Positions 36,290 to 62,138 of a stretch of 64,000 nucleotides of DNA are shown here, piece by piece. The number at the start of each line of letters is the position of its first letter. Position 1 is the first letter of the stretch. The position numbers were made by a program, and so were the translations under genes. The notes under the pieces are model-generated. The model was not told the origin of the DNA. It did no database searches and saw only the letters and a list, made by a program, of their open reading frames with translations. The stretch spans positions 1 through 64,000 of the forward strand of contig JANQLY010000004.1 of the NCBI GenBank assembly GCA_028280345.1. The letters run 5' to 3'. The stretch comes from Pseudomonadales bacterium (GTDB lineage Bacteria; Pseudomonadota; Gammaproteobacteria; Pseudomonadales; UBA7239).

Positions 36290-37138
36290 TTAAAAAACCA
36301 CTGTACGGCGACCTTCCACAATGATGCGCTCGTCCAGATGGGCGCGCACTGCTTTGGCCAAGGTCACGCGTTCAACATCCCTGCCTTTGCGAATCAGATC
36401 ATCGACATCATCAGCGTGAGAGCAGTGTTCCACCCCCTGGGCAATAATTGGCCCTTCATCGAGATCGGTGGTGGCGTAGTGAGCAGTGGCGCCAACCAGT
36501 TTGACGCCGCGTTCGTGAGCCTGGTGATAAGGTTTGGCGCCTTTAAAAGCGGGTAGTGTGCTGTGATGAATATTGATAATTTGCTGTGGGAAAGTCTCAA
36601 TCATTTGATCCGATAAAATCTGCATATAACGGGCCATCACAATCAAATCGATATCATATTCTCGTAGCAGGGCAATCTCTTTGGCTTCCTGCTCGGCCTT
36701 GGTGTCCTTTGTAATTGGAAACACATGATAGGGAATACCAAAACCTTCGGAAAAAGCGCGCAAGTCCTCGTGGTTGGAAATCACCAATGGAATTTCACAG
36801 TCAAGTTCACCAATGCGATGACGTAACAATAAATCATAAATGCAGTGTTCGTATTTGGAGACAAAGATCGCAACACGCTGTTTGGTATCCTTGTAGGCAA
36901 CACGCCAGTCCATTTGCAGACGGCCACATTCAATATCAAGCAAGCTTTCGAGCTGTTCGCGGCTGATATCCATTTCAGTCATATCAAATAAAATGCGTTG
37001 AAAGAACAGGCCTTGCTCATCGCTGTGTTGCTGCAGGTCGATAATATTAATGCCGTGCTCGCTGAGTAGTTTACTGACAGCAGCAACAAGACCGCGACGG
37101 TCCTCGCATTTAATCAGTAGAGTGGCGTGTTGTTTCAT
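36290..37138 (-). CDS. purU: Formyltetrahydrofolate deformylase
   Basis: 282 residues. An N-terminal ACT domain (about 1-85, LIKCEDRRGLVAAVSKLLSEHG) precedes a formyltransferase-fold hydrolase with INIHHSTLPAFKGAKPYHQAHERGVKLVGATAHY and the DLDEGPIIAQ catalytic Asp region. It releases formate from 10-formyl-THF. Here it is the last gene of a unit with metV, metF and a MetH-activation-domain protein (41-bp gap), so it probably finishes oxidation of methyl groups to formate rather than serving only purine balance. The MetF2-PurU set of chloromethane-using Methylobacterium is the nearest known parallel. Confidence 0.94.
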   Translation of the reverse strand: MKQHATLLIKCEDRRGLVAAVSKLLSEHGINIIDLQQHSDEQGLFFQRILFDMTEMDISREQLESLLDIECGRLQMDWRVAYKDTKQRVAIFVSKYEHCIYDLLLRHRIGELDCEIPLVISNHEDLRAFSEGFGIPYHVFPITKDTKAEQEAKEIALLREYDIDLIVMARYMQILSDQMIETFPQQIINIHHSTLPAFKGAKPYHQAHERGVKLVGATAHYATTDLDEGPIIAQGVEHCSHADDVDDLIRKGRDVERVTLAKAVRAHLDERIIVEGRRTVVF

Positions 37139-37178: not shown

Positions 37179-37940
37179 CTAATTTGAGGCAGAAGTAGCA
37201 TGACCATCCTGAAGATCGATAGTTTTACCCTCGCCATCAAAACCACGGAACGGTGCCTTGCGCATGTCGCAGCCCTTAAGGTCACAGATGCGACATGGTT
37301 CTATCTCCGGCGCTTCCTTGCCACCCGGGTTCAGGCCAACCATGCCAAGCAGGGATTTTTCCGGCTCCATCATAATGCCATTAGACAAAGTGATGGGCAG
37401 TTGTGTGGGCGAGTAAAATGAAAACAGCGTTTCCTGATCATCCAGGTGCCAGCCGGTATAGCCGGGGCCAACACGTAATGTTGTGCCATAGTCGCGCTGC
37501 TTTGCGTTTTCAAATACCTGGCGGGTTAACTCTTTCATTAAATCAACAACCATGGCAGACCCTACCGCACTTACAGCAAGTGCCTGGGTCATCTTGCCTG
37601 CGGCCATTAAGCGACGCGATTCGTCGGTAACTTTTTGTCCCGCGGTAACCAGTAAGATTGTTACCGCATCGGCCTTGCGCAAAATTTTTGGTAACTGTGT
37701 ACTTTGTAAGGTAACCTGCTCGGCGCCGCGTTTAAGAAAAATGGCTTCGCCATCTATGCCGCACAGCGGAACTTCAATAGCCTGCCCCCAGCTATCGGCG
37801 AGTTCATTGGCGCGAGGCATTTCTGCCTCGGCTATCTCGCGAATTTTCTTTCGGGCCTTGTCCGGATCACTATAGCCCATAAAATTGAGCACGGAATTAA
37901 TGTCCAGATCAAAGTGAAAGTCTTGCAGTTGATTATCCAT
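37179..37940 (-). CDS. Stand-alone methionine-synthase (MetH) activation-domain protein
   Basis: About 253 residues resembling the C-terminal reactivation domain of cobalamin-dependent methionine synthase, encoded alone. The SAM-binding signature is RVGPGYTGWHLDDQETLF (MetH: RxxPGY), followed by LPITLSNGIMMEPEKSLLGMVGL. Unlike E. coli MetH it ends with a cysteine motif, CRICDLKGCDMRK, which could hold a metal or Fe-S cluster. It lies 22 bp after metF in the same unit. Likely role: SAM-dependent reactivation of oxidised cobalamin, either of the corrinoid protein at 58.6 kb or of a short MetH elsewhere. ATG at 37938-37940 preferred over an upstream TTG. Confidence 0.75.
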   Translation of the reverse strand: MDNQLQDFHFDLDINSVLNFMGYSDPDKARKKIREIAEAEMPRANELADSWGQAIEVPLCGIDGEAIFLKRGAEQVTLQSTQLPKILRKADAVTILLVTAGQKVTDESRRLMAAGKMTQALAVSAVGSAMVVDLMKELTRQVFENAKQRDYGTTLRVGPGYTGWHLDDQETLFSFYSPTQLPITLSNGIMMEPEKSLLGMVGLNPGGKEAPEIEPCRICDLKGCDMRKAPFRGFDGEGKTIDLQDGHATSASN

Positions 37941-37961
37941 AGCGCAGAGTGACAATGGTAA

Positions 37962-38906
37962 TCAGGCAGCATTATCCGCTGCGGGGAATAGGTTGAGGTC
38001 TTTTAACATACGCGGCACGGTTTCCGTCCAGGCCAGTGGGTAAAGATGAAAGCCGGCGATCGGATACTTTTGCTTGATGGTTTGCATGATTTCCAGACAC
38101 ATCTGTATGCCTTCTTCTTTCTGGTCACTTGCATTTTCGATACGCGAGATTACTTTTGGTGGTACCCAGATGCCGGGTACATGCTCAACCATGAATGACA
38201 ATCCGCGCAGTGAACGCGGCGGCAAAATACCAGGAAGAATTTTTACCTTGTCATGTACACCCTGCTTGTCGAGAGCAGTCCACCACTGATCAAATGCCTC
38301 GAGATCAAAAATCGGCTGGGTCTGTAGAAAATCTACGCCGGCTTCTGCCTTGCGGTTAATAGTGCGGGCAAGGTGGTGGGGTTTATTGCCCGCCGGGTTT
38401 GCCGCGCCGCCAATGCACCACTGCATTTTAAACGGCTCTTCTTTGGCGCTGTCGGCAATCGGTGTGCCTGAATAGGCGCGGCCGGCACTGCGCAACTGAT
38501 TGACCATCATAATCAGATTGGTGGAATCCATATCAAACACCGGTTTTGACATCGGGTGATCGCCAAAGGTGACATAGTCGCCAGTCAGGCACAGCACATT
38601 GCGAATGCCGTGGGCATAAGCCGCGATGATGTCGGCCTGCTGGGCGAGTTTGCTGCGATCGCGGCAGGTCATTTGCAACACAGGTTCAAGACCTTGCTGT
38701 TTAACATAGATCGCGGTGCCGAGACTCGACATGCGCAAGGTAGCGGAGGGCATGTCAAGAATATTGACTGCATCCACGCCAACTTTGTAATTTTCAATAT
38801 GCTTGTCGAGGCGGCTCAGGTCCGGAGCTTTCGGCGGAGACAGCTCGGCAGTGATGGCAAATTCACCGGACTGAAGTTTTTTATACAGGGTGCTGGTATC
38901 GTTCAT
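37962..38906 (-). CDS. metF: 5,10-methylenetetrahydrofolate reductase, MetV-associated type
   Basis: 314 residues, TIM barrel. ITAELSPPKAPD holds the catalytic Glu. TCRDR, NVLCLTGDY, GGAANPAGNKPH, FLQTQPIFD and PGILPP follow in MetF order. The LTGD and GGAANP variants are those I associate with MetF proteins that pair with MetV, as in acetogens. FAD is expected; the electron partner need not be NAD(P)H. Its ATG overlaps the metV stop by 4 bp. In this context it probably runs toward oxidation of methyl-THF. Confidence 0.92.
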   Translation of the reverse strand: MNDTSTLYKKLQSGEFAITAELSPPKAPDLSRLDKHIENYKVGVDAVNILDMPSATLRMSSLGTAIYVKQQGLEPVLQMTCRDRSKLAQQADIIAAYAHGIRNVLCLTGDYVTFGDHPMSKPVFDMDSTNLIMMVNQLRSAGRAYSGTPIADSAKEEPFKMQWCIGGAANPAGNKPHHLARTINRKAEAGVDFLQTQPIFDLEAFDQWWTALDKQGVHDKVKILPGILPPRSLRGLSFMVEHVPGIWVPPKVISRIENASDQKEEGIQMCLEIMQTIKQKYPIAGFHLYPLAWTETVPRMLKDLNLFPAADNAA

Positions 38907-39373
38907 GAGGGGTCAAAGTGCTCTACGATGCGGTCGCTGGCAATCAGGTCATTGAGTACCTTTTTCGGCACCGGGTGTGGGGACTGAATGGCCCCGTTAG
39001 GATCAATTTTTTTGCTGAAAATATTGGCAACTGCAGAAGTGCCAACCAGTGACCAGTCTACGGCAGGCTGAATTTTGTTGAACAGCTTGTCCTTCATGCC
39101 CAGGGTACCGTCTACGGCAGGGTTATCAGCCCGCTCATTGATTTTAGTCCAGATACACTCCTTGTCCGGGAAAACCTCACACTTACCAAACATGGAGCCA
39201 CCGCAGGGGCCATTGCGCATCTGCTTTGGGCAGGTCTGGGGACATACCATTGAGGTGGAGCGCAGCACACACTGGCCGCAGCTATGGCAGCCAAAAACGC
39301 GTTTTTTTGACCATTCCTCGATGGCGAATAGCAGGCGGTAGAGCCTGCCCTTGGTCCATACACGGTTGTACAT
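38903..39373 (-). CDS. metV: MetV, cysteine-rich partner of MetF
   Basis: 156 residues of the methylenetetrahydrofolate-reductase C-terminal (MetV) family. Many cysteines are grouped as CHSCGQC, MVCPQTCPKQMRNGPCGGS, GKCEVF and KECIW, suited to Zn or Fe-S binding; the NGPCGG block is diagnostic. In acetogens MetV joins MetF and supports use of other electron carriers. First gene of metV-metF-MetHact-purU. A tandem palindrome with an embedded promoter lies 63-99 bp upstream. Confidence 0.88.
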   Translation of the reverse strand: MYNRVWTKGRLYRLLFAIEEWSKKRVFGCHSCGQCVLRSTSMVCPQTCPKQMRNGPCGGSMFGKCEVFPDKECIWTKINERADNPAVDGTLGMKDKLFNKIQPAVDWSLVGTSAVANIFSKKIDPNGAIQSPHPVPKKVLNDLIASDRIVEHFDPS

Positions 39374-39435: not shown

Positions 39436-39472
39436 ACTTACTCATAAGTAAGTAGCTTACTCATGAGTAAGT
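39436..39472. promoter_or_regulatory. Tandem 18-bp palindromes upstream of metV operon (TetR operator)
   Basis: Site 1 is acttactcataagtaagt (39436-39453), palindromic with one mismatch pair. Site 2 (39455-39472) contains the perfect 16-bp palindrome cttactcatgagtaag. Their starts are 19 bp apart. The same arrangement occurs at 62102-62138 before tetR. Site 2 lies within the -35/-10 spacer of the predicted promoter, as expected for a repressor. Confidence 0.85.
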
Positions 39473-53209: not shown

Positions 53210-53974
53210 TCAAAACTTTCCATTATCATTCTTCCACTCACTTTGGGGAGCAACTTTTTCTATAGTATCCCAATGTTCGACGATCTTCGACCCTTCGATT
53301 CGGAAAAGGTCATAAAACGAAGTATGCTCACCATGACGCTGTCCCTCACAAACGGACAACACAAAATTCCCATCTGCCAGTACCCGATGCAGCTTCTCAT
53401 ATTGAATCATTGGTCTGGCGGTATCGTCACTTTCCATAAACGCCAGGTGAAGCGAGGGCAGGCCGTCCGATAGGGTGGGGTTATGCTCTATATACGGTTC
53501 AGAGATATAGTTCTGCAGCTCGTGAAACTGTCTGTCAATTAAAACGGCTGTAACAAAGCTCGTAACTAACTCGCGGTTATGCTCAGTGTTTTCCTGTTCG
53601 CAGACATCTGTAGCCCCATCTACCATAGAGTGCCCTGATAAGTTAGGGCCCAGTCTGAGCTGGATATTGTCCCAGTGCTCAACAGCGTATTCCCCTTCGA
53701 AACGAAACACCTCAAAGCCAACTCTGGATACACTGAAGTCATACTCGGTGTGACCAAAGACAAAATCGCCATCAGAGAAAATTCGTACGATATTTACCTT
53801 GGGTGATGTTTTGGACAGACGTTTGAATAAATTAGCTAACCCTTCGCCACCTTCATGGGTTTGCGGGTTGTGTTGAATATATTTGGCCGGATTAATCACA
53901 GCAATGGGTTCAGGGTCTCCAGTCTCTATGCTCTTTAGCAAGGCCTGGATTTTTTGTTTTCGTTCTGCGCTCAT
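53210..53974 (-). CDS. Double NTF2/SnoaL-like domain protein
   Basis: About 254 residues built of two similar halves, each with a YIQHNPQ or YIEHNPTLSDG motif and an EHWDNIQ or EHWDTIEK ending, i.e. two SnoaL-like domains in tandem. Related proteins are annotated as SnoaL-like aldol-condensation or nuclear-transport-factor family. Function unknown. Confidence 0.75.
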   Translation of the reverse strand: MSAERKQKIQALLKSIETGDPEPIAVINPAKYIQHNPQTHEGGEGLANLFKRLSKTSPKVNIVRIFSDGDFVFGHTEYDFSVSRVGFEVFRFEGEYAVEHWDNIQLRLGPNLSGHSMVDGATDVCEQENTEHNRELVTSFVTAVLIDRQFHELQNYISEPYIEHNPTLSDGLPSLHLAFMESDDTARPMIQYEKLHRVLADGNFVLSVCEGQRHGEHTSFYDLFRIEGSKIVEHWDTIEKVAPQSEWKNDNGKF

Positions 53975-54028
53975 TGGCACTTTGGTGGGTTAGCTACGGT
54001 AGGTAGTCTGAAGTTCAGTAGGGTTATT

Positions 54029-55916: not shown

Positions 55917-56032
55917 TTAATTCGCCTGACTGTTGACTTATGTATCATGGCCTATAAGTTCGAGGCCCATAAACTTTATAGTAAAAATTTTAATTTCAAA
56001 AAAATAACATCTTACACTAAAAATCTTGAAAC

Positions 56033-56059
56033 AAAAAAGCCGGCATTTGCCGGCTTTTT
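56033..56059 (-). terminator. Intrinsic terminator of the corrinoid methyltransferase operon
   Basis: A gccggc/gccggc stem with A/T-run flanks; read on the minus strand it ends in six T. It lies 25 bp after the last gene of the tetR-RACo-corrinoid cluster and closes that unit. Confidence 0.85.
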
Positions 56060-56083: not shown

Positions 56084-57016
56084 TTACTCACCCGCCTCCG
56101 CTTTCTTCGCAGCACGGCGTGCTTCACGCTCAGCTTTCTTACGTGCGCGTTCCTCTTCCTTGGCAGCTTTTTCGTCGAGCTTTTTCTTCATGTCGTCACT
56201 CATTGGCGTTAACAGAATTCCGTCGCGGTGTGCCTGGATATATTTGCCGCACTGTGGGTCTTCACCCATCAGGGAGCGAATCGCATACATCATCGCGCGC
56301 ATTTCCTTGCCACGTGGATTGATCATAAAGCCTTCCATGCCATTGGCGGCGAGCATCGCCACATAGGTGCGGTTGAGCAGTGCACGGTGAGGCATACCAA
56401 AGCTGACGTTGGACAGACCACAGTAGGTGCGGATTTTCGGGAATTCTGCTTTCATCATTTGCAGCAGGTCAAAGCTGATGGTGCCGACATTGTCGTCGGT
56501 GCCGATTGGCAGAATCAGTGGATCGATCCAGAGGTTTTCGTCCGGTACACCAGCGTCGCGGGATTTTTTCACCAGCTCCTGGCAGATTTTAAAACGGCCT
56601 TCAGCGGTGTGATTAATACCGTCGTCGTCCATGAGCAGAGCAACAATACCGGTATTGTACTTGGCCGCTACCGGCAGCAGAGTTTCCGGGCTGTCACCTT
56701 CGTTGGTAATCGAGGAAATAATCGGTACCTGACCTTTCCAGTCAAAGCTTTCCAATGTATGAATAATCGCCGGCGGGTTGGAGCTGTCGAGTACGAGCGG
56801 AATGTCAGTGACTTCGCGTACGGTCTCAACCATCCAGGGCAGGTCGATCATTTCATCGCAGCCGGTCACCTGGGCGTTGAGGTCTAGGTAGTCTGCATCA
56901 GCATCCACCTGTTCTTTGGCTACTTTTTGAATCCACTCTTTATCGTGGTTCTTTACTGCTTCACAGATTGCAGGGATTGTCGCGTTGAGTGACTCTCCGA
57001 TAATAACAACTGCCAT
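56084..57016 (-). CDS. Methyltetrahydrofolate:corrinoid methyltransferase (AcsE/MtgA-like)
   Basis: 310 residues of pterin-binding TIM barrel. VVIIGESLNATIPAI opens the barrel, then DADYLDLNAQVTG, IPLVLDSSNPPAI, PIISSITNEGD, LLMDDDGINHTAEGR, IDPLILPIG and TYCGLSNVSFGMPHR follow the AcsE (MeTr)/MtgA pattern of pterin and corrinoid contacts. It should move the methyl group between the corrinoid protein and THF, here most likely toward THF. The last ~35 residues are an Arg/Lys/Glu/Ala-rich tail (KKLDEKAAKEEERARKKAER), unusual for the family. Last gene of the cluster. Confidence 0.88.
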   Translation of the reverse strand: MAVVIIGESLNATIPAICEAVKNHDKEWIQKVAKEQVDADADYLDLNAQVTGCDEMIDLPWMVETVREVTDIPLVLDSSNPPAIIHTLESFDWKGQVPIISSITNEGDSPETLLPVAAKYNTGIVALLMDDDGINHTAEGRFKICQELVKKSRDAGVPDENLWIDPLILPIGTDDNVGTISFDLLQMMKAEFPKIRTYCGLSNVSFGMPHRALLNRTYVAMLAANGMEGFMINPRGKEMRAMMYAIRSLMGEDPQCGKYIQAHRDGILLTPMSDDMKKKLDEKAAKEEERARKKAEREARRAAKKAEAGE

Positions 57017-57184
57017 CTTTTTTCTCCGGGGGTAAATTTAAAATTAAAACTAATACCAATACCAAGGGTTAGCTAATGGGCACCAGTGCGAGGCGCGGAG
57101 AATCGAGAAAGCGGAACGTATAAACAATACTTGAGCATTTCGAGATTCTCCGCAACAAAGCAATGGTGTTCAGTAGCAAGCCTT

Positions 57185-58561
57185 TTAAAGGGGAAGGCCC
57201 ATTTCTGCGAGCTCACCTTTAACTTGTTCATAGTCATCAATAAGTTCCTGCTTCGGCACACACTGCTCACAATCATAGGCATCAACAAACTCACGCGGGC
57301 CGGCGCCAGAGGCGGTGTGTTTCTCGGTTTCTTCGTTGCGTTTCGCGAATACCTTGTTCATCAGTGCATCAGCTTCTGCCGGATCCTTGATTTTAAGGCA
57401 GGCTTCAGCAACTTCCGATGTAAGACGGCTTTCCAGACCAGAGTGACCGCCAATCCAGAAGTAGGCGCAACCGTTAAAGGTATTGGAGATAGTCATTGCC
57501 TGGGCTTGCCACATGCCGGCGTAGGTACGCCAGTACGGCTCGATACCTGCACATACAGAAGCGATCGGAGTTTTAACGTTGCGTTCGAATGCGCGAGTCG
57601 CTGCACCGGTAGCCCACTGGGTTTCCTGATCAGACCAGGTACCGTCGAGGTGGTTGGCAAACATTTGAACCATGCCGCCGTGACCATAGGAGAGCTGAGC
57701 GATTGCGTTACAAACGATACCGACGGCAGTGTCACCACCATGGCGGCACAACGCGCCGGTCAGTGATACACAGGAGGTCCACGGCTCAATGCCGCGATCC
57801 TGACAGAACTTCGCCATCATGAAAGCATTCCAGTCGATTTTCATTTCCGGAATGATGTGAATACCAATCTGGGTGTTCCAGGTGGAACGACGGTTTTCAT
57901 CGTGGTCATCAATACAGGCGAAAGAAGCAGCTGCAGAAGATGCTGTACACAGCAGGCCCTGGTGCATACCCGGACGACCCTCTTCACGACAGATACGCTG
58001 GATTTGTTCACATTCCCACTGCGCGGCGTACATTTCAGACAAGGTGCCTGCTTTTGCAGAGTGGCCGTGAATCACCTCAATACCACCGGTAATACCCATG
58101 GCGAGGTTGCGTGGCTCTTTAACAAAAGAGCGAATGTAAGGATCGTGCCAGTCTTCACCAATAACACCACAGGGGCCACCGGCCATGATCGGCATAGTGT
58201 CATCAAACGCTTTGCGGTAGCCGTATTCAATACGGTCATCGCCCTGACCGAATTTTGAAATATGCGGGTTGGAGTTGTAGTGGTCAGCGGTGGCGCGGAT
58301 TTCTTCTTCAGTCAGTGCGATTACGCGGAAAGTGTCGTTGTGGTAGATACCGCAGGTGGCAAGCAGTTCAACCGCAGCATTAAAAACTGCATCTGCTTGC
58401 TCGTCGCTGATGACGGTGCTATCCGGGGTGTACTCAACGCCATATTTCTTAACAACATTGCGCATGGTTTTTGAAAATTTGATATCAAACTTGCTGGATT
58501 TTTCAATTACCTCACCGGTTTCGGCACGGCCCTGGAATTCCATAATGTCTAATAAAGCCAT
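57185..58561 (-). CDS. MtmB-family corrinoid methyltransferase lacking pyrrolysine
   Basis: 458 residues, exactly the length of Methanosarcina monomethylamine methyltransferase MtmB. Shared blocks compared from memory: LLATCGIYHNDTFRVIALTEEEI (MtmB LLECGIY..DT.RI..TEDEI), GRPGM, MKIDWNA (LKIDLDA), HLDG and the end ELAEMGLPL (KLEDLGLVF). MtmB has pyrrolysine (UAG) at 202 shortly after GRPGM; here H200-Q201-G202 stands there and the frame has no stop. So it is a non-pyrrolysine relative, as MtgB is to MttB. It should demethylate an amine or similar donor onto the corrinoid protein; the substrate is unknown and need not be monomethylamine. Not an MttB-type sequence in my reading. Confidence 0.8.
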   Translation of the reverse strand: MALLDIMEFQGRAETGEVIEKSSKFDIKFSKTMRNVVKKYGVEYTPDSTVISDEQADAVFNAAVELLATCGIYHNDTFRVIALTEEEIRATADHYNSNPHISKFGQGDDRIEYGYRKAFDDTMPIMAGGPCGVIGEDWHDPYIRSFVKEPRNLAMGITGGIEVIHGHSAKAGTLSEMYAAQWECEQIQRICREEGRPGMHQGLLCTASSAAASFACIDDHDENRRSTWNTQIGIHIIPEMKIDWNAFMMAKFCQDRGIEPWTSCVSLTGALCRHGGDTAVGIVCNAIAQLSYGHGGMVQMFANHLDGTWSDQETQWATGAATRAFERNVKTPIASVCAGIEPYWRTYAGMWQAQAMTISNTFNGCAYFWIGGHSGLESRLTSEVAEACLKIKDPAEADALMNKVFAKRNEETEKHTASGAGPREFVDAYDCEQCVPKQELIDDYEQVKGELAEMGLPL

Positions 58562-58631
58562 TGGTTTCTCCTGTCCTGTTAAATTAAATCAGTAAAAATA
58601 GTTAGGTTACGTGTTGGCAAGTGCCTGGCCG

Positions 58632-59282
58632 CTAGCTAAAGTGCGCTTCCATAATGTTTTTGCAGAGCGTTACTGCTTCCATCGCATTCGGTGCCCAGCC
58701 ATCGGCGCCCATCATGTCGGATTTCTCCTGGTTAGTTTCTGCGCCACCCATGATGACCTTGAACTGATCCTGGAGACCCATATCTTTTACGTAGTTCACC
58801 ACGTCGCGACAGTTCGGAATAGTGGTTACAAGGAACGCTGACAAGCCGATGATGTTAGCGCCTTTTTCTTGCGCTGCTTTAATAAAGTCCATTGCATCAA
58901 TGTTTACACCAAGGGAGTGAACTTCAAAACCGGCGAGTTCGAGTTGTTTGGCAACGAGGCCGTAACCGATATCGTGCAAGTCACCGCTTACTGCGCCGAT
59001 CACCACGCAACCTTGACGTTCACCGTCAGAGGATTCCGGCAGGTGCGGATCGATAATCTTGATGCAGTTTTCGGCAAGTTCACCACCAACCATGAGTTCG
59101 GCGAGGAAGTATTCTTTCTGCTCAAACAAAATACCAATTTTTTCGAGGCCCTTAACAACACCGCCTTTGAGAACCTCTACCGGGTCCAGGCCGGCGTCGA
59201 TACATTCCTGTACCAGTTCTTCGGCTTCATCATCGAGATCAGCGATCAATTCTGCAATTTCTTCAATATCACTTTGATCCAT
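58632..59282 (-). CDS. Corrinoid (cobalamin-binding) methyl-carrier protein
   Basis: 216 residues, MtmC/MttC/MtgC type. An N-terminal helical cap domain (about 1-88; DPVEVLKGGVVKGLEKIG, FLAELMVGGELAENC) precedes a Rossmann B12 domain with GDLHDIGYGLV, giving the base-off ligand His103 in DxHxxG. GLSAFLVTT and VIMGGAETN are the remaining B12 contacts. It carries the methyl group as methyl-Co(III) between the MtmB-like enzyme and the THF methyltransferase. It lies between these partners, 70-80 bp from its neighbours. Confidence 0.94.
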   Translation of the reverse strand: MDQSDIEEIAELIADLDDEAEELVQECIDAGLDPVEVLKGGVVKGLEKIGILFEQKEYFLAELMVGGELAENCIKIIDPHLPESSDGERQGCVVIGAVSGDLHDIGYGLVAKQLELAGFEVHSLGVNIDAMDFIKAAQEKGANIIGLSAFLVTTIPNCRDVVNYVKDMGLQDQFKVIMGGAETNQEKSDMMGADGWAPNAMEAVTLCKNIMEAHFS

Positions 59283-59362
59283 GGTTTTCTCCTCATTACA
59301 TAATCAGGGTTAACTTGAAAGGGTTACTATATTGCGTCCAAATCTGTCTATAAGCGACTTGC

Positions 59363-61444
59363 CTACGCGACTTTCGCTCTTGCCTTGCGGCGCTCTTCGC
59401 GGCGACGCTTACGCTCTTCCTTCTCAGTGTCCGCCGGCGGATTGGGGTCGATACCATACCGTGCCAGCGTGGGAAATGCATGCTTTTTGTGAGGTAGCAA
59501 AGTGGCGTCGACAAAGTGGGGTACAAAACTCGCTTCGTTAGTCAGTTCAACGTAATGTATATCTCGCGCGATGCGTTCGGCTTCGGCACGTTTTGCCTTA
59601 TTTATCAAAGCCATACGTGCACCGTCACCGGCAGCATTGCCTACTGACTGCAAGTGGCTCAGGCCGGTATCATGGAACAGGCCGACCATGAGTGAGCGAC
59701 GCAAATCAATGTGGGAGCCAAATGCGCCGGCGAGAATCACGCGATCCGGGCGTTCCTTACCGAGCTTGTCGAGCAACACCTGAATACCGGAATACACTGC
59801 CGCTTTAGCCAGTTGCACATTGCGCACATCATCGATGGTCATCGTAATGTCTTCGCTGAGGCTGGTTTCATCGGCCCAGGCAATCACAAACTCAGGTTCG
59901 CCGTTGTCATCGCGGCGCAGGCGCGGGGTTTCAACTTCCATATTGTATTTGCCATTAGGTGCGAGAATGCCAACTTTATAAAGCTCACCAACGGCATCGA
60001 TAATCGCTGAGCCACACAGACCATTGGCGCCGATGTCAGCAGGTTCAAGCCGGGTGTTCCACGCTTCCTTGCCGATCACCTTGAAACGCACATCGTAGGT
60101 TTTGGCATCGATACGAATTTTTTCAATCGCGCCGCGGGATGCACGCACACCGTATTTGATTGAAGCACCTTCGAGGGCCGGGCCAGTGGGGCAGGAGGTG
60201 GAGTAGATTTTGTCCTTGTTGCCAACAAGAATTTCGCCGTTGGTGCCGATATCCACAATCGCAACGAGTTCGTCGGAGTTATACGGTTCGAGTGCGATTG
60301 CTACAGCAGTGTTATCCGCACCGACAAAGCCCGCCTGGTTTGGCAACAGGTGAATATTGATTGAGGGCAGTACATCGACATTGATGTCGCGGGCTTTGAC
60401 ATTCACGCCCACTTGCACGCGCGGATTAAACGGTGACTTGCCGAGAGATTCGGGGTCGAGGCCGAGAAAGATGTGGTGCATGCAGGTATTGGCGACCAGC
60501 ACGATCTCGGAAATATCTTCCTTACTGTAACCGGAAGATTTGGTAACTTCATCCGCGAGTGTGCTGAGTGCTTCGGTGACAGCTTTCTGCATGCGCTTGA
60601 GATTGTCTTCCCCTTCACTCGCCGCGATGCGGTTCATCACATCTTCGCCGCCCATTTTGATTTGCGGATTCATAATGGATTCAGTAGCAATGGTTTCACC
60701 CGTGTGCATATCACACAGATAGCTCGCCATTGTAGTGGTACCGAGATCCACCGCCAGACCGAGCAGGGTTGCAGAAGTATCGCCATTTTCGATGCGTACA
60801 ATTTCACGGTCATCGAATACGGTGGCGGTTAGTTGCATGGCTTTGGTGCGCTGTGGTTTGGCGACATCGGTAAGTTGTTCCAGTGCGCAGAAGTCAATTG
60901 AGACATCAAGGTTATGAGTGTCTTTAAGAGCATCGCGCAAACGCTCCCAGTCACCGCGCGGATCGTGCAAGGTGGGAGCAGGGACATCGACAAAAAACTT
61001 GCGTGTGACCGGATCCTGAATCTCAATTGGTTTACCTGCGGCCTTGCGCACCACAGCTTCGCGTACGCGGCTTTCTTCAGGAATAAAAACAACCACATCG
61101 TCGAGTACTTTGGTTTGGCAGCCAACGCGATCAGAACTTTTGAAACCGTGCTTTTGCATCAGGTTGCTTTCGTGCTCACTAACCGGCGTGACATGAGTTT
61201 GACCGGAGTGCAGACCGTGGCTACCAGCCGGCACCATGGTACCCATGGAAAGCTCCCGGCCTTCGTCATCGAAGGTGCCGTTTAAAACCTGACATTTACA
61301 TTTGGAGCAGGAGCCGGTGCCGCCGCAAATCGATTCGATACCGACACCAAGTTCCCGGGCAGCGTCGAGTAAATTGGTGCCCACTTCGAATTCCCCCTGG
61401 CGGGCACTCGGTAAAAACATTACGGTTTTGGTTGTAGCGCTCAT
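59363..61444 (-). CDS. RACo-type reductive activator of corrinoid protein (2Fe-2S + ASKHA ATPase)
   Basis: 693 residues. An N-terminal plant-type 2Fe-2S ferredoxin domain has C40, C46, C49 (SICGGTGSCSKCKC) and C109. The C-terminal two thirds are the ASKHA/DUF4445 ATPase: AVDLGTTTMASYLCD, AIVDIGTNGEILVGN, TGPALEGASIKYG and VILAGAFGSHIDLRRS. In Carboxydothermus RACo uses ATP to reduce inactive Co(II) to Co(I). Here it would keep the neighbouring corrinoid protein active, important in an oxic cell. This is RACo-like, not the 4Fe-4S RamA of methanogens. The C-terminus is an Arg/Lys/Glu tail. It starts 11 bp after tetR. Confidence 0.92.
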   Translation of the reverse strand: MSATTKTVMFLPSARQGEFEVGTNLLDAARELGVGIESICGGTGSCSKCKCQVLNGTFDDEGRELSMGTMVPAGSHGLHSGQTHVTPVSEHESNLMQKHGFKSSDRVGCQTKVLDDVVVFIPEESRVREAVVRKAAGKPIEIQDPVTRKFFVDVPAPTLHDPRGDWERLRDALKDTHNLDVSIDFCALEQLTDVAKPQRTKAMQLTATVFDDREIVRIENGDTSATLLGLAVDLGTTTMASYLCDMHTGETIATESIMNPQIKMGGEDVMNRIAASEGEDNLKRMQKAVTEALSTLADEVTKSSGYSKEDISEIVLVANTCMHHIFLGLDPESLGKSPFNPRVQVGVNVKARDINVDVLPSINIHLLPNQAGFVGADNTAVAIALEPYNSDELVAIVDIGTNGEILVGNKDKIYSTSCPTGPALEGASIKYGVRASRGAIEKIRIDAKTYDVRFKVIGKEAWNTRLEPADIGANGLCGSAIIDAVGELYKVGILAPNGKYNMEVETPRLRRDDNGEPEFVIAWADETSLSEDITMTIDDVRNVQLAKAAVYSGIQVLLDKLGKERPDRVILAGAFGSHIDLRRSLMVGLFHDTGLSHLQSVGNAAGDGARMALINKAKRAEAERIARDIHYVELTNEASFVPHFVDATLLPHKKHAFPTLARYGIDPNPPADTEKEERKRRREERRKARAKVA

Positions 61445-61455
61445 AATCGTCCTGT

Positions 61456-62085
61456 CTATGTGTTATCGAGGAGGCCGTGGATCACGCGAATCAATTCGCG
61501 GTTGTAGGCATCAACACTGGCCTGGTATGCGGCATTACTACCGGCAAACTTTTCACCGGCGAGGAGCGGCGCATCCATAATGAAGAACATTGTTGCTCCG
61601 GCAAGGATGGACCAGAACTGAACGGAATCTACACCTCGGCACAGGCCAGCTTGCTTGCCTTCTTCAAGGGTTGTAATCAGGCGGCTAAACATCGGGTCGA
61701 CAAATTCGCTGACTTCAGGGCGCAGTCCATCCTGGGAGCCGGCGACCTCGCGCATAAACAGTCGCATCAGGGTCGGGCGGTGGCCAGCATACTGCACCCA
61801 GGCGGTGACGGCACCTTCGACCTTCTCGAAGAAGGGTACTTCGGCAGTGAGTGCCTCGGCGATAACACCATCGAGCTCGGCAAACAGTTTGGCGAGGATG
61901 GCGTTATATAAGGTTTCCTTGTCTTTGAAGTGGTAAATCACTGCAGTACGGGTAATGCCCACATCGGCCGCAATATCCTCAAGGCGAGTAGGGAAAAAGC
62001 CATTAGCGGCAAAGTGAACCTCGGCGGCCTGCAAAATGGCCTCCTGGGTTTCTTCGGTGCGTTGGGCAGCACGGTTCTTGGTCAC
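61456..62085 (-). CDS. TetR family repressor of the C1 regulon
   Basis: 209 residues. The N-terminal HTH is TRLEDIAADVGITRTAVIYHFKDKETLYNAIL; the C-terminal ligand domain (about 80-205) resembles TetR_C regulators of acid/CoA-type ligands. It is the first gene of tetR-RACo-corrinoid protein-MtmB-MtgA. A pair of 18-bp palindromes lies 17 bp before its ATG and the same pair lies before metV, so it probably controls itself and both operons. The inducing ligand is unknown. Confidence 0.88.
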   Translation of the reverse strand: MTKNRAAQRTEETQEAILQAAEVHFAANGFFPTRLEDIAADVGITRTAVIYHFKDKETLYNAILAKLFAELDGVIAEALTAEVPFFEKVEGAVTAWVQYAGHRPTLMRLFMREVAGSQDGLRPEVSEFVDPMFSRLITTLEEGKQAGLCRGVDSVQFWSILAGATMFFIMDAPLLAGEKFAGSNAAYQASVDAYNRELIRVIHGLLDNT

Positions 62086-62101: not shown

Positions 62102-62138
62102 ACTTACTGACATGCAAGTAGCTTACTCGTGAGTAAGT
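62102..62138. promoter_or_regulatory. Tandem 18-bp palindromes upstream of tetR (TetR operator)
   Basis: Site 1 acttactgacatgcaagt (62102-62119) is an imperfect palindrome; site 2 gcttactcgtgagtaagt (62121-62138) nearly perfect. The 19-bp register and the sequence around site 2 equal those at 39436-39472. Confidence 0.85.

Follow-up and report, generated by a model that had tools for sequence, protein, structure and literature searches.

A candidate two-operon TetR regulon in a Pseudomonadales bacterium for cobalamin-dependent demethylation, most probably of a steroid

The locus lies in the ~4 Mb genome of a Pseudomonadales bacterium (GCA_028280345.1, contig JANQLY010000004.1), and the window analyzed here is the stretch of 64,000 nucleotides at positions 1-64,000. 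A minus-strand operon at 62085-56084 encodes a TetR-family regulator, a RACo-type activator, a corrinoid protein, an MtmB homologue, and a methyl-THF:corrinoid methyltransferase. The first gene, tetR (61456..62085, minus strand), matched PF00440 (TetR_N) at E 7e-10, and its orthologues in genomes G002 and G003 are ~60% identical. The next gene (59363..61444, minus strand) encodes a 693-aa activator of RACo type, expected to reduce the corrinoid protein at the expense of ATP; it carries PF14574/PF17651/PF17650 (RACo_C_ter/middle/linker) and Fer2, and its nearest solved structure is RACo 3zyy (E 9e-103). The corrinoid protein (58632..59282, minus strand; 216 aa) combines PF02310 (B12-binding) with PF02607 (B12-binding_2), has the DxHxxG motif as DLHDIG at residue 101, and is nearest in structure to cobalamin-binding proteins including 1y80, MttC, and MtmC. 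It is followed by the MtmB-family methyltransferase without pyrrolysine (57185..58561, minus strand; 458 aa). The last gene (56084..57016, minus strand) encodes a methyl-THF:corrinoid protein methyltransferase of MeTr/MtgA type (310 aa; Pterin_bind), which scored 270.7 against NCBIfam PRK07535 (NF005719; cut-off 259) and whose nearest structures are the O-demethylase methyltransferases 4o0q and 4o1e (4o0q, E 5e-47). An intrinsic terminator hairpin at the operon end (56032..56058, minus strand) was read in the sequence as aaaaaGCCGGCaaatGCCGGCtttttt and was not listed by the automatic scan. The first-pass annotation had described five genes on one strand with a terminator at the end, and the coordinates, the Pfam matches, and the hairpin at 56058-56032 bear this out.

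A donor methyltransferase, a DxHxxG carrier, an acceptor methyltransferase, and a reductive activator are present in one operon, which is the three-component corrinoid layout. By its gene content, the operon is a predicted corrinoid methyl-transfer system ending on tetrahydrofolate (THF). The complete operon is kept in one further genome of the window's family and partially in two others, where the contigs end inside the operon. No cobalamin riboswitch or other Rfam RNA was found within the 64-kb window. A SnoaL-like protein gene lies downstream of the operon at 53210-53980, and a formate-tetrahydrofolate ligase gene lies just past the window, near hflX/hflK (L010:5299-6999; contig 65299-66999). 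The latter is 3.2 kb from tetR, on the opposite strand and without a shared operator.

The MtmB homologue matched PF05369 at E 1.4e-39 (136.7 bits, cut-off 25) over profile positions 1-450 of 450, while the MttB profile (PF06253, COG5598) gave no match at E 0.001 in the Pfam search. Its AlphaFold model (pLDDT 94.6) aligned with MtmB 1L2Q at TM 0.88 and with MttB/MtgB structures at ~0.42-0.52. MttB membership was ruled out by the absent profile match and the low TM to MttB/MtgB. In the alignment, the pyrrolysine position is Gly202; it is UAG in one Pyl-type relative and Leu in the Lachnospiraceae/Eubacterium non-Pyl homologues. The mtmB reading frame has no internal stop, and a PylS profile search of the window's genome returned only a match below the cut-off. 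The open frame without UAG and the lack of PylS above the cut-off ruled out pyrrolysine readthrough or a misassembly across a UAG; together with Gly202, they also showed that the protein is not a Pyl-type monomethylamine methyltransferase in the strict sense. The earlier assignment to the MtmB family, outside MttB and without pyrrolysine, therefore held, with a full-length PF05369 match and a fold that agrees. Its companion statement, that no non-Pyl MtmB had been characterized, is refuted by EmtA, AbeA, and MtqB. The estrogen methyltransferase EmtA (2020) was described as an MtmB relative lacking pyrrolysine (PMC7448270), AbeABC (C19 demethylation, 2025) is given as 57% identical to EmtAB in the account in PMC12507874, and MtqB, a non-Pyl MtmB whose substrates are tetramethylammonium and choline, was assayed in 2026 (PMC13044021). 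Of the characterized non-Pyl MtmB lines in the cited literature, two (EmtA and the AbeABC system) are steroid enzymes and the third is MtqB.

A second minus-strand operon lies within the window at 39373-36290 and encodes MetV, MetF, a MetH-activase-like protein, and PurU. The MetV-like protein, a methylene-THF reductase partner (38903..39373, minus strand), matched PF12225 (DUF5981) at E 3e-25. The methylene-THF reductase MetF (37962..38906, minus strand; PF02219, E 1.5e-34; nearest NCBIfam NF006396) presumably oxidizes methyl-THF. The third protein (37179..37955, minus strand; 258 aa) gave weak matches to the MetH activation domain (PF02965, E 0.006; metH TIGR02082, E 0.002; 1j6r, E 0.022), and its structure model was unusable (pLDDT 35); these weak profile matches suggest a MetH activase, and it is possibly a second corrinoid reactivator. 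A 37% homologue adjoins the operon of a related locus, L018, in clade A of the MtmB tree described below. PurU (36290..37138, minus strand), the formyl-THF deformylase that converts formyl-THF to formate, scored 358 bits against TIGR00655 (cut-off 286).

Promoter comparison revealed a 37-bp double operator upstream of both operons. The copy upstream of tetR (62102..62138, minus strand) is a conserved palindrome with the core CTTACTCACGAGTAAG at 62122-62137, and the copy upstream of the second operon (39436..39472, minus strand) has two perfect cores at 39437-39452 and 39456-39471. These two boxes are identical at 32 of 37 positions, and 29 of 37 columns are identical across five promoters in three genomes. 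Genome-wide, CTTACTNNNNAGTAAG occurred at three sites only, namely 62122 before tetR and the tandem 39437 and 39456 before the second operon, against a chance expectation of ~0.24 sites (12 fixed bases, 4 Mb); the reversed control pattern had 0 sites. In G002 (Cellvibrionales UBA2034), the element precedes tetR and also a MetV-MetF-acyltransferase-activase-PurU operon, in which the inserted acyltransferase-3 gene is at L092:8405-9451. Since the double operator stands before both operons, its core occurs nowhere else, and the same placements recur in G002, one TetR regulon would span both operons, probably linking methyl transfer with the oxidation of methyl-THF. We infer that the TetR protein binds the 37-bp box.

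Methyl transfer and methyl-THF oxidation under one regulon would point to demethylation, and we regard this direction as considerably the likelier one because the pairing of MetF and PurU in a regulon that also holds a corrinoid:THF methyltransferase is a signature of methyl oxidation to formate. At sequence level, dedicated MetF and PurU share an operator with the corrinoid:THF methyltransferase, and their predicted co-regulation would give a cmu-type layout. In the aerobic chloromethane (cmu) pathway, metF and purU are required for growth (PMC3621897). The first-pass annotation had proposed a B12-dependent demethylation feeding methyl-THF, and the MetV-MetF-PurU operon with the shared operator makes this the likelier direction. 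It had also noted that such modules are best described in methanogens and anaerobic bacteria; the cmu pathway is a known case of corrinoid/THF demethylation in an aerobe (PMC3621897).

The opposite direction was also weighed. In an Emt-like reaction, methyl-THF made by MetF would pass its methyl through the corrinoid to estrogen C10, and the androgen product would be degraded via KstD and KshA. Such a reaction would be in line with EmtA, a characterized estrogen methyltransferase and non-Pyl MtmB relative, the genome's own KstD and KshA homologues could use the product, and the formate-THF ligase 3.2 kb away could serve this direction, which we counted against demethylation. However, PurU in the co-regulated operon drains formyl-THF. 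Estrogen-methylating Denitratisoma induces SHMT, MetF, MetH, and MetK, supplying SAM (PMC7448270), whereas SHMT, MetH, and MetK were seen in neither operon; moreover, methyl transfer from methylcobalamin to a phenol is endergonic and is driven by SAM in Denitratisoma (PMC7448270). We therefore consider the reverse direction distinctly unlikely.

In a maximum likelihood tree, the window's MtmB fell in clade A (15 rows) with support 100/100. Among the sampled rows, the nearest neighbor of clade A is clade B (6 rows), although the A+B union is less sure, as long branches meet there. Both clades stand apart from the archaeal, spirochaete, and Clostridial MtmB homologues, and all of their members have Gly at the pyrrolysine position in the alignment. 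Within clade A, the window's family sits on a long branch (0.71 changes per column) and is 35-50% identical to the other members, so specificity in this family may have shifted. The MtmB family is rare in the class, where the window's own genome was the only one of 369 genomes drawn to have it, and it is present in 4/4 searched genomes of the window's family and in one other of the same order. Most relatives compared are MAGs, and no close relatives were found on plasmids. A search for EmtA/AbeA-type proteins with a Sterolibacterium-type KstD query and in one proteobacterial family gave 0/301 genomes, and in the class of Thermincola it gave Pyl-type MtmB only.

Several loci in the tree had further features. 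Clade B (L024, L025, L027, L029, and L051) is a second MtmB clade associated with steroid degraders; a ~490-aa thymidylate-synthase-like/PterinBD-DUF4346 protein precedes MtmB in L025, L027, and L029, and in L027 and L029 a TetR gene comes ahead of that protein. None of the four corrinoid proteins examined from clade B has the DxHxxG motif. Clade B loci are possibly a different folate-linked methyl-transfer system. In L017, a homocysteine S-methyltransferase gene (PF02574; L017:1571-2449) follows the clade A MtmB homologue, which suggests that this lineage uses a different methyl acceptor or donor. Two tandem MtmB paralogues lie behind one corrinoid protein in L030 and L043, loci of a Desulfurococcales archaeon and of Moorella stamsii.

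The genes around clade A homologues pointed to steroids. Families other than that of the window contribute 11 loci to clade A, and 7 of these (L014, L015, L016, L019, L020, L021, and L022) have a 3-ketosteroid dehydrogenase (KstD) gene within ~2 kb of the mtmB homologue; the KstD structure match was checked for two. Thiolase and ChsH2-like genes are also present in L015, and both L014 and L022 carry 3-beta-HSD-like genes. At the genome level, KstD was found in 11/12 clade A, 4/4 clade B, and 0/12 other MtmB genomes, an association with clades A and B (Fisher p about 4e-7) that is partly confounded with phylum. In the window's family, KstD is not adjacent to the operon, and the steroid link is one of phylogeny and genome content: the window's own genome encodes a KstD (7p18, E 3e-154) and six KshA_C-type Rieske oxygenases. 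Because of the clade A KstD linkage, these KstD and KshA_C genes, and the known non-Pyl steroid enzymes EmtA and AbeABC, the MtmB substrate is most probably a steroid, and among steroids most probably a 3-ketosteroid. The group removed would most probably be the C19 angular methyl, since KstD makes a 1,4-dien-3-one, from which the C10 methyl can leave with ring aromatization. Such chemistry is reported for AbeABC/EMT, and its extension to the window's enzyme is by analogy. Counted against the steroid reading is that an aerobe with KshA and KstD is not obviously in need of C19 removal. What had earlier been left as an unidentified methylated compound is thereby narrowed to a probable steroid, and the fate of the methyl-THF is indicated by the MetV-MetF-PurU operon.

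The same neighborhoods bear on two other classes of methyl donor. For an MtqB-like quaternary-amine demethylase, the methyl donor would be an N-methyl compound such as choline or tetramethylammonium, with oxidation of the methyl to formate by the same regulon. MtqB is an assayed non-Pyl MtmB active on tetramethylammonium and choline (PMC13044021), and a branch from methyl-THF to formate fits any methyl donor. Neither operon nor the scanned window flanks, however, held an amine transporter or downstream amine gene; the clade A neighbors are instead KstD, thiolase/ChsH2, and HSD genes, and KstD was absent from all 12 tested genomes with MtmB outside clades A and B. An amine substrate thus appears unlikely. 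Alternatively, the system could demethylate another donor, such as a methoxyaromatic (as an O-demethylase) or a different methylated terpenoid, and the MeTr subunit is indeed nearest to the O-demethylase methyltransferases 4o0q/4o1e. MtmB-type enzymes can also accept varied donors, as MtqB illustrates (PMC13044021). To our knowledge, though, the donor-side methyltransferases of characterized O-demethylases come from other families. Such a donor would also leave the clade A KstD linkage unexplained, and we consider it very unlikely.

Taken together, we give slightly better than an even chance to a two-operon TetR regulon for cobalamin-dependent demethylation, acting most probably on a 3-ketosteroid and most probably at its C19 methyl. 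In this scheme, the DxHxxG carrier would accept, at its Co(I) corrinoid, a methyl that the MtmB-type enzyme takes from an organic substrate, and the MeTr enzyme would pass this methyl on to tetrahydrofolate. The MetV-MetF pair would then convert methyl-THF to methylene-THF, a housekeeping FolD would presumably yield formyl-THF, and PurU would release formate. Whenever the carrier lapses to Co(II), the RACo-type ATPase, perhaps along with the MetH-activase-like protein, would re-reduce it, a step that would be of importance in an aerobe. The regulon appears real, complete, and conserved, and is best read as MtmB-type, probably steroid, enzymes joined to a cmu-style aerobic methyl-oxidation branch.

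A more specific version, which we hold only tentatively and below even confidence, is that an aerobic, oxygenase-bearing gammaproteobacterium removes steroid C19 with a cobalamin enzyme under a dedicated TetR regulon, giving estrogen-type aromatic steroids without a P450 aromatase and formate from the methyl. If this is correct, an oxygenase-bearing bacterium would also remove or exchange the C19 methyl of steroids with cobalamin, a capacity described to date solely for anaerobic or denitrifying bacteria; chemistry of oxygen-free microbes would be present in an aerobe, with a bearing on the environmental fate of androgens and estrogens. Clade A is a defined enzyme set across several phyla whose substrate is directly testable, and the shared operator offers a simple handle: the ligand able to displace the TetR protein should indicate the substrate.

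Five known systems come closest. The window's protein shares PF05369 and the fold (1L2Q, TM 0.88) with the monomethylamine methyltransferase MtmBC of Methanosarcina, but the pyrrolysine of the latter is Gly202 here and identity is ~22%. MtqBC of Methanococcoides methylutens Q3c shares a non-Pyl MtmB, a dedicated corrinoid protein, and the demethylation direction proposed here, but belongs to an archaeon, acts on tetramethylammonium and choline, and delivers the methyl to coenzyme M (PMC13044021). The cmu pathway of Methylobacterium extorquens CM4 parallels the route proposed here, since in this aerobe a corrinoid methyl moves to THF and then through MetF2, FolD, and PurU to formate (PMC3621897). 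EmtABCD of the steroid degrader Denitratisoma likewise has a non-Pyl MtmB-related catalytic subunit, a corrinoid protein, and a RACE-like activator gene nearby; unlike the demethylation system proposed here, it methylates with SAM as donor and is induced with SHMT, MetF, MetH, and MetK, and the emt genes as listed do not include a THF methyltransferase (PMC7448270). AbeABC of anaerobic bacterial estrogenesis (Phosphitispora sp. TUW77; Wang 2025), as far as PMC12507874 describes it, is alike, on the reading favored here, in the cobalamin-dependent removal of the steroid C19 methyl and its subsequent oxidation through the folate (Wood-Ljungdahl) branch, but works in a strict anaerobe that takes the methyl to CO2, whereas here the genome encodes oxygenases, the operon includes RACo, and a TetR switch and MetV-MetF-PurU are present. 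The association with steroid catabolism seen for AbeABC and EmtAB is found here as well, through KstD adjacency in clade A (7/11 loci) and the genome's own KstD and KshA.
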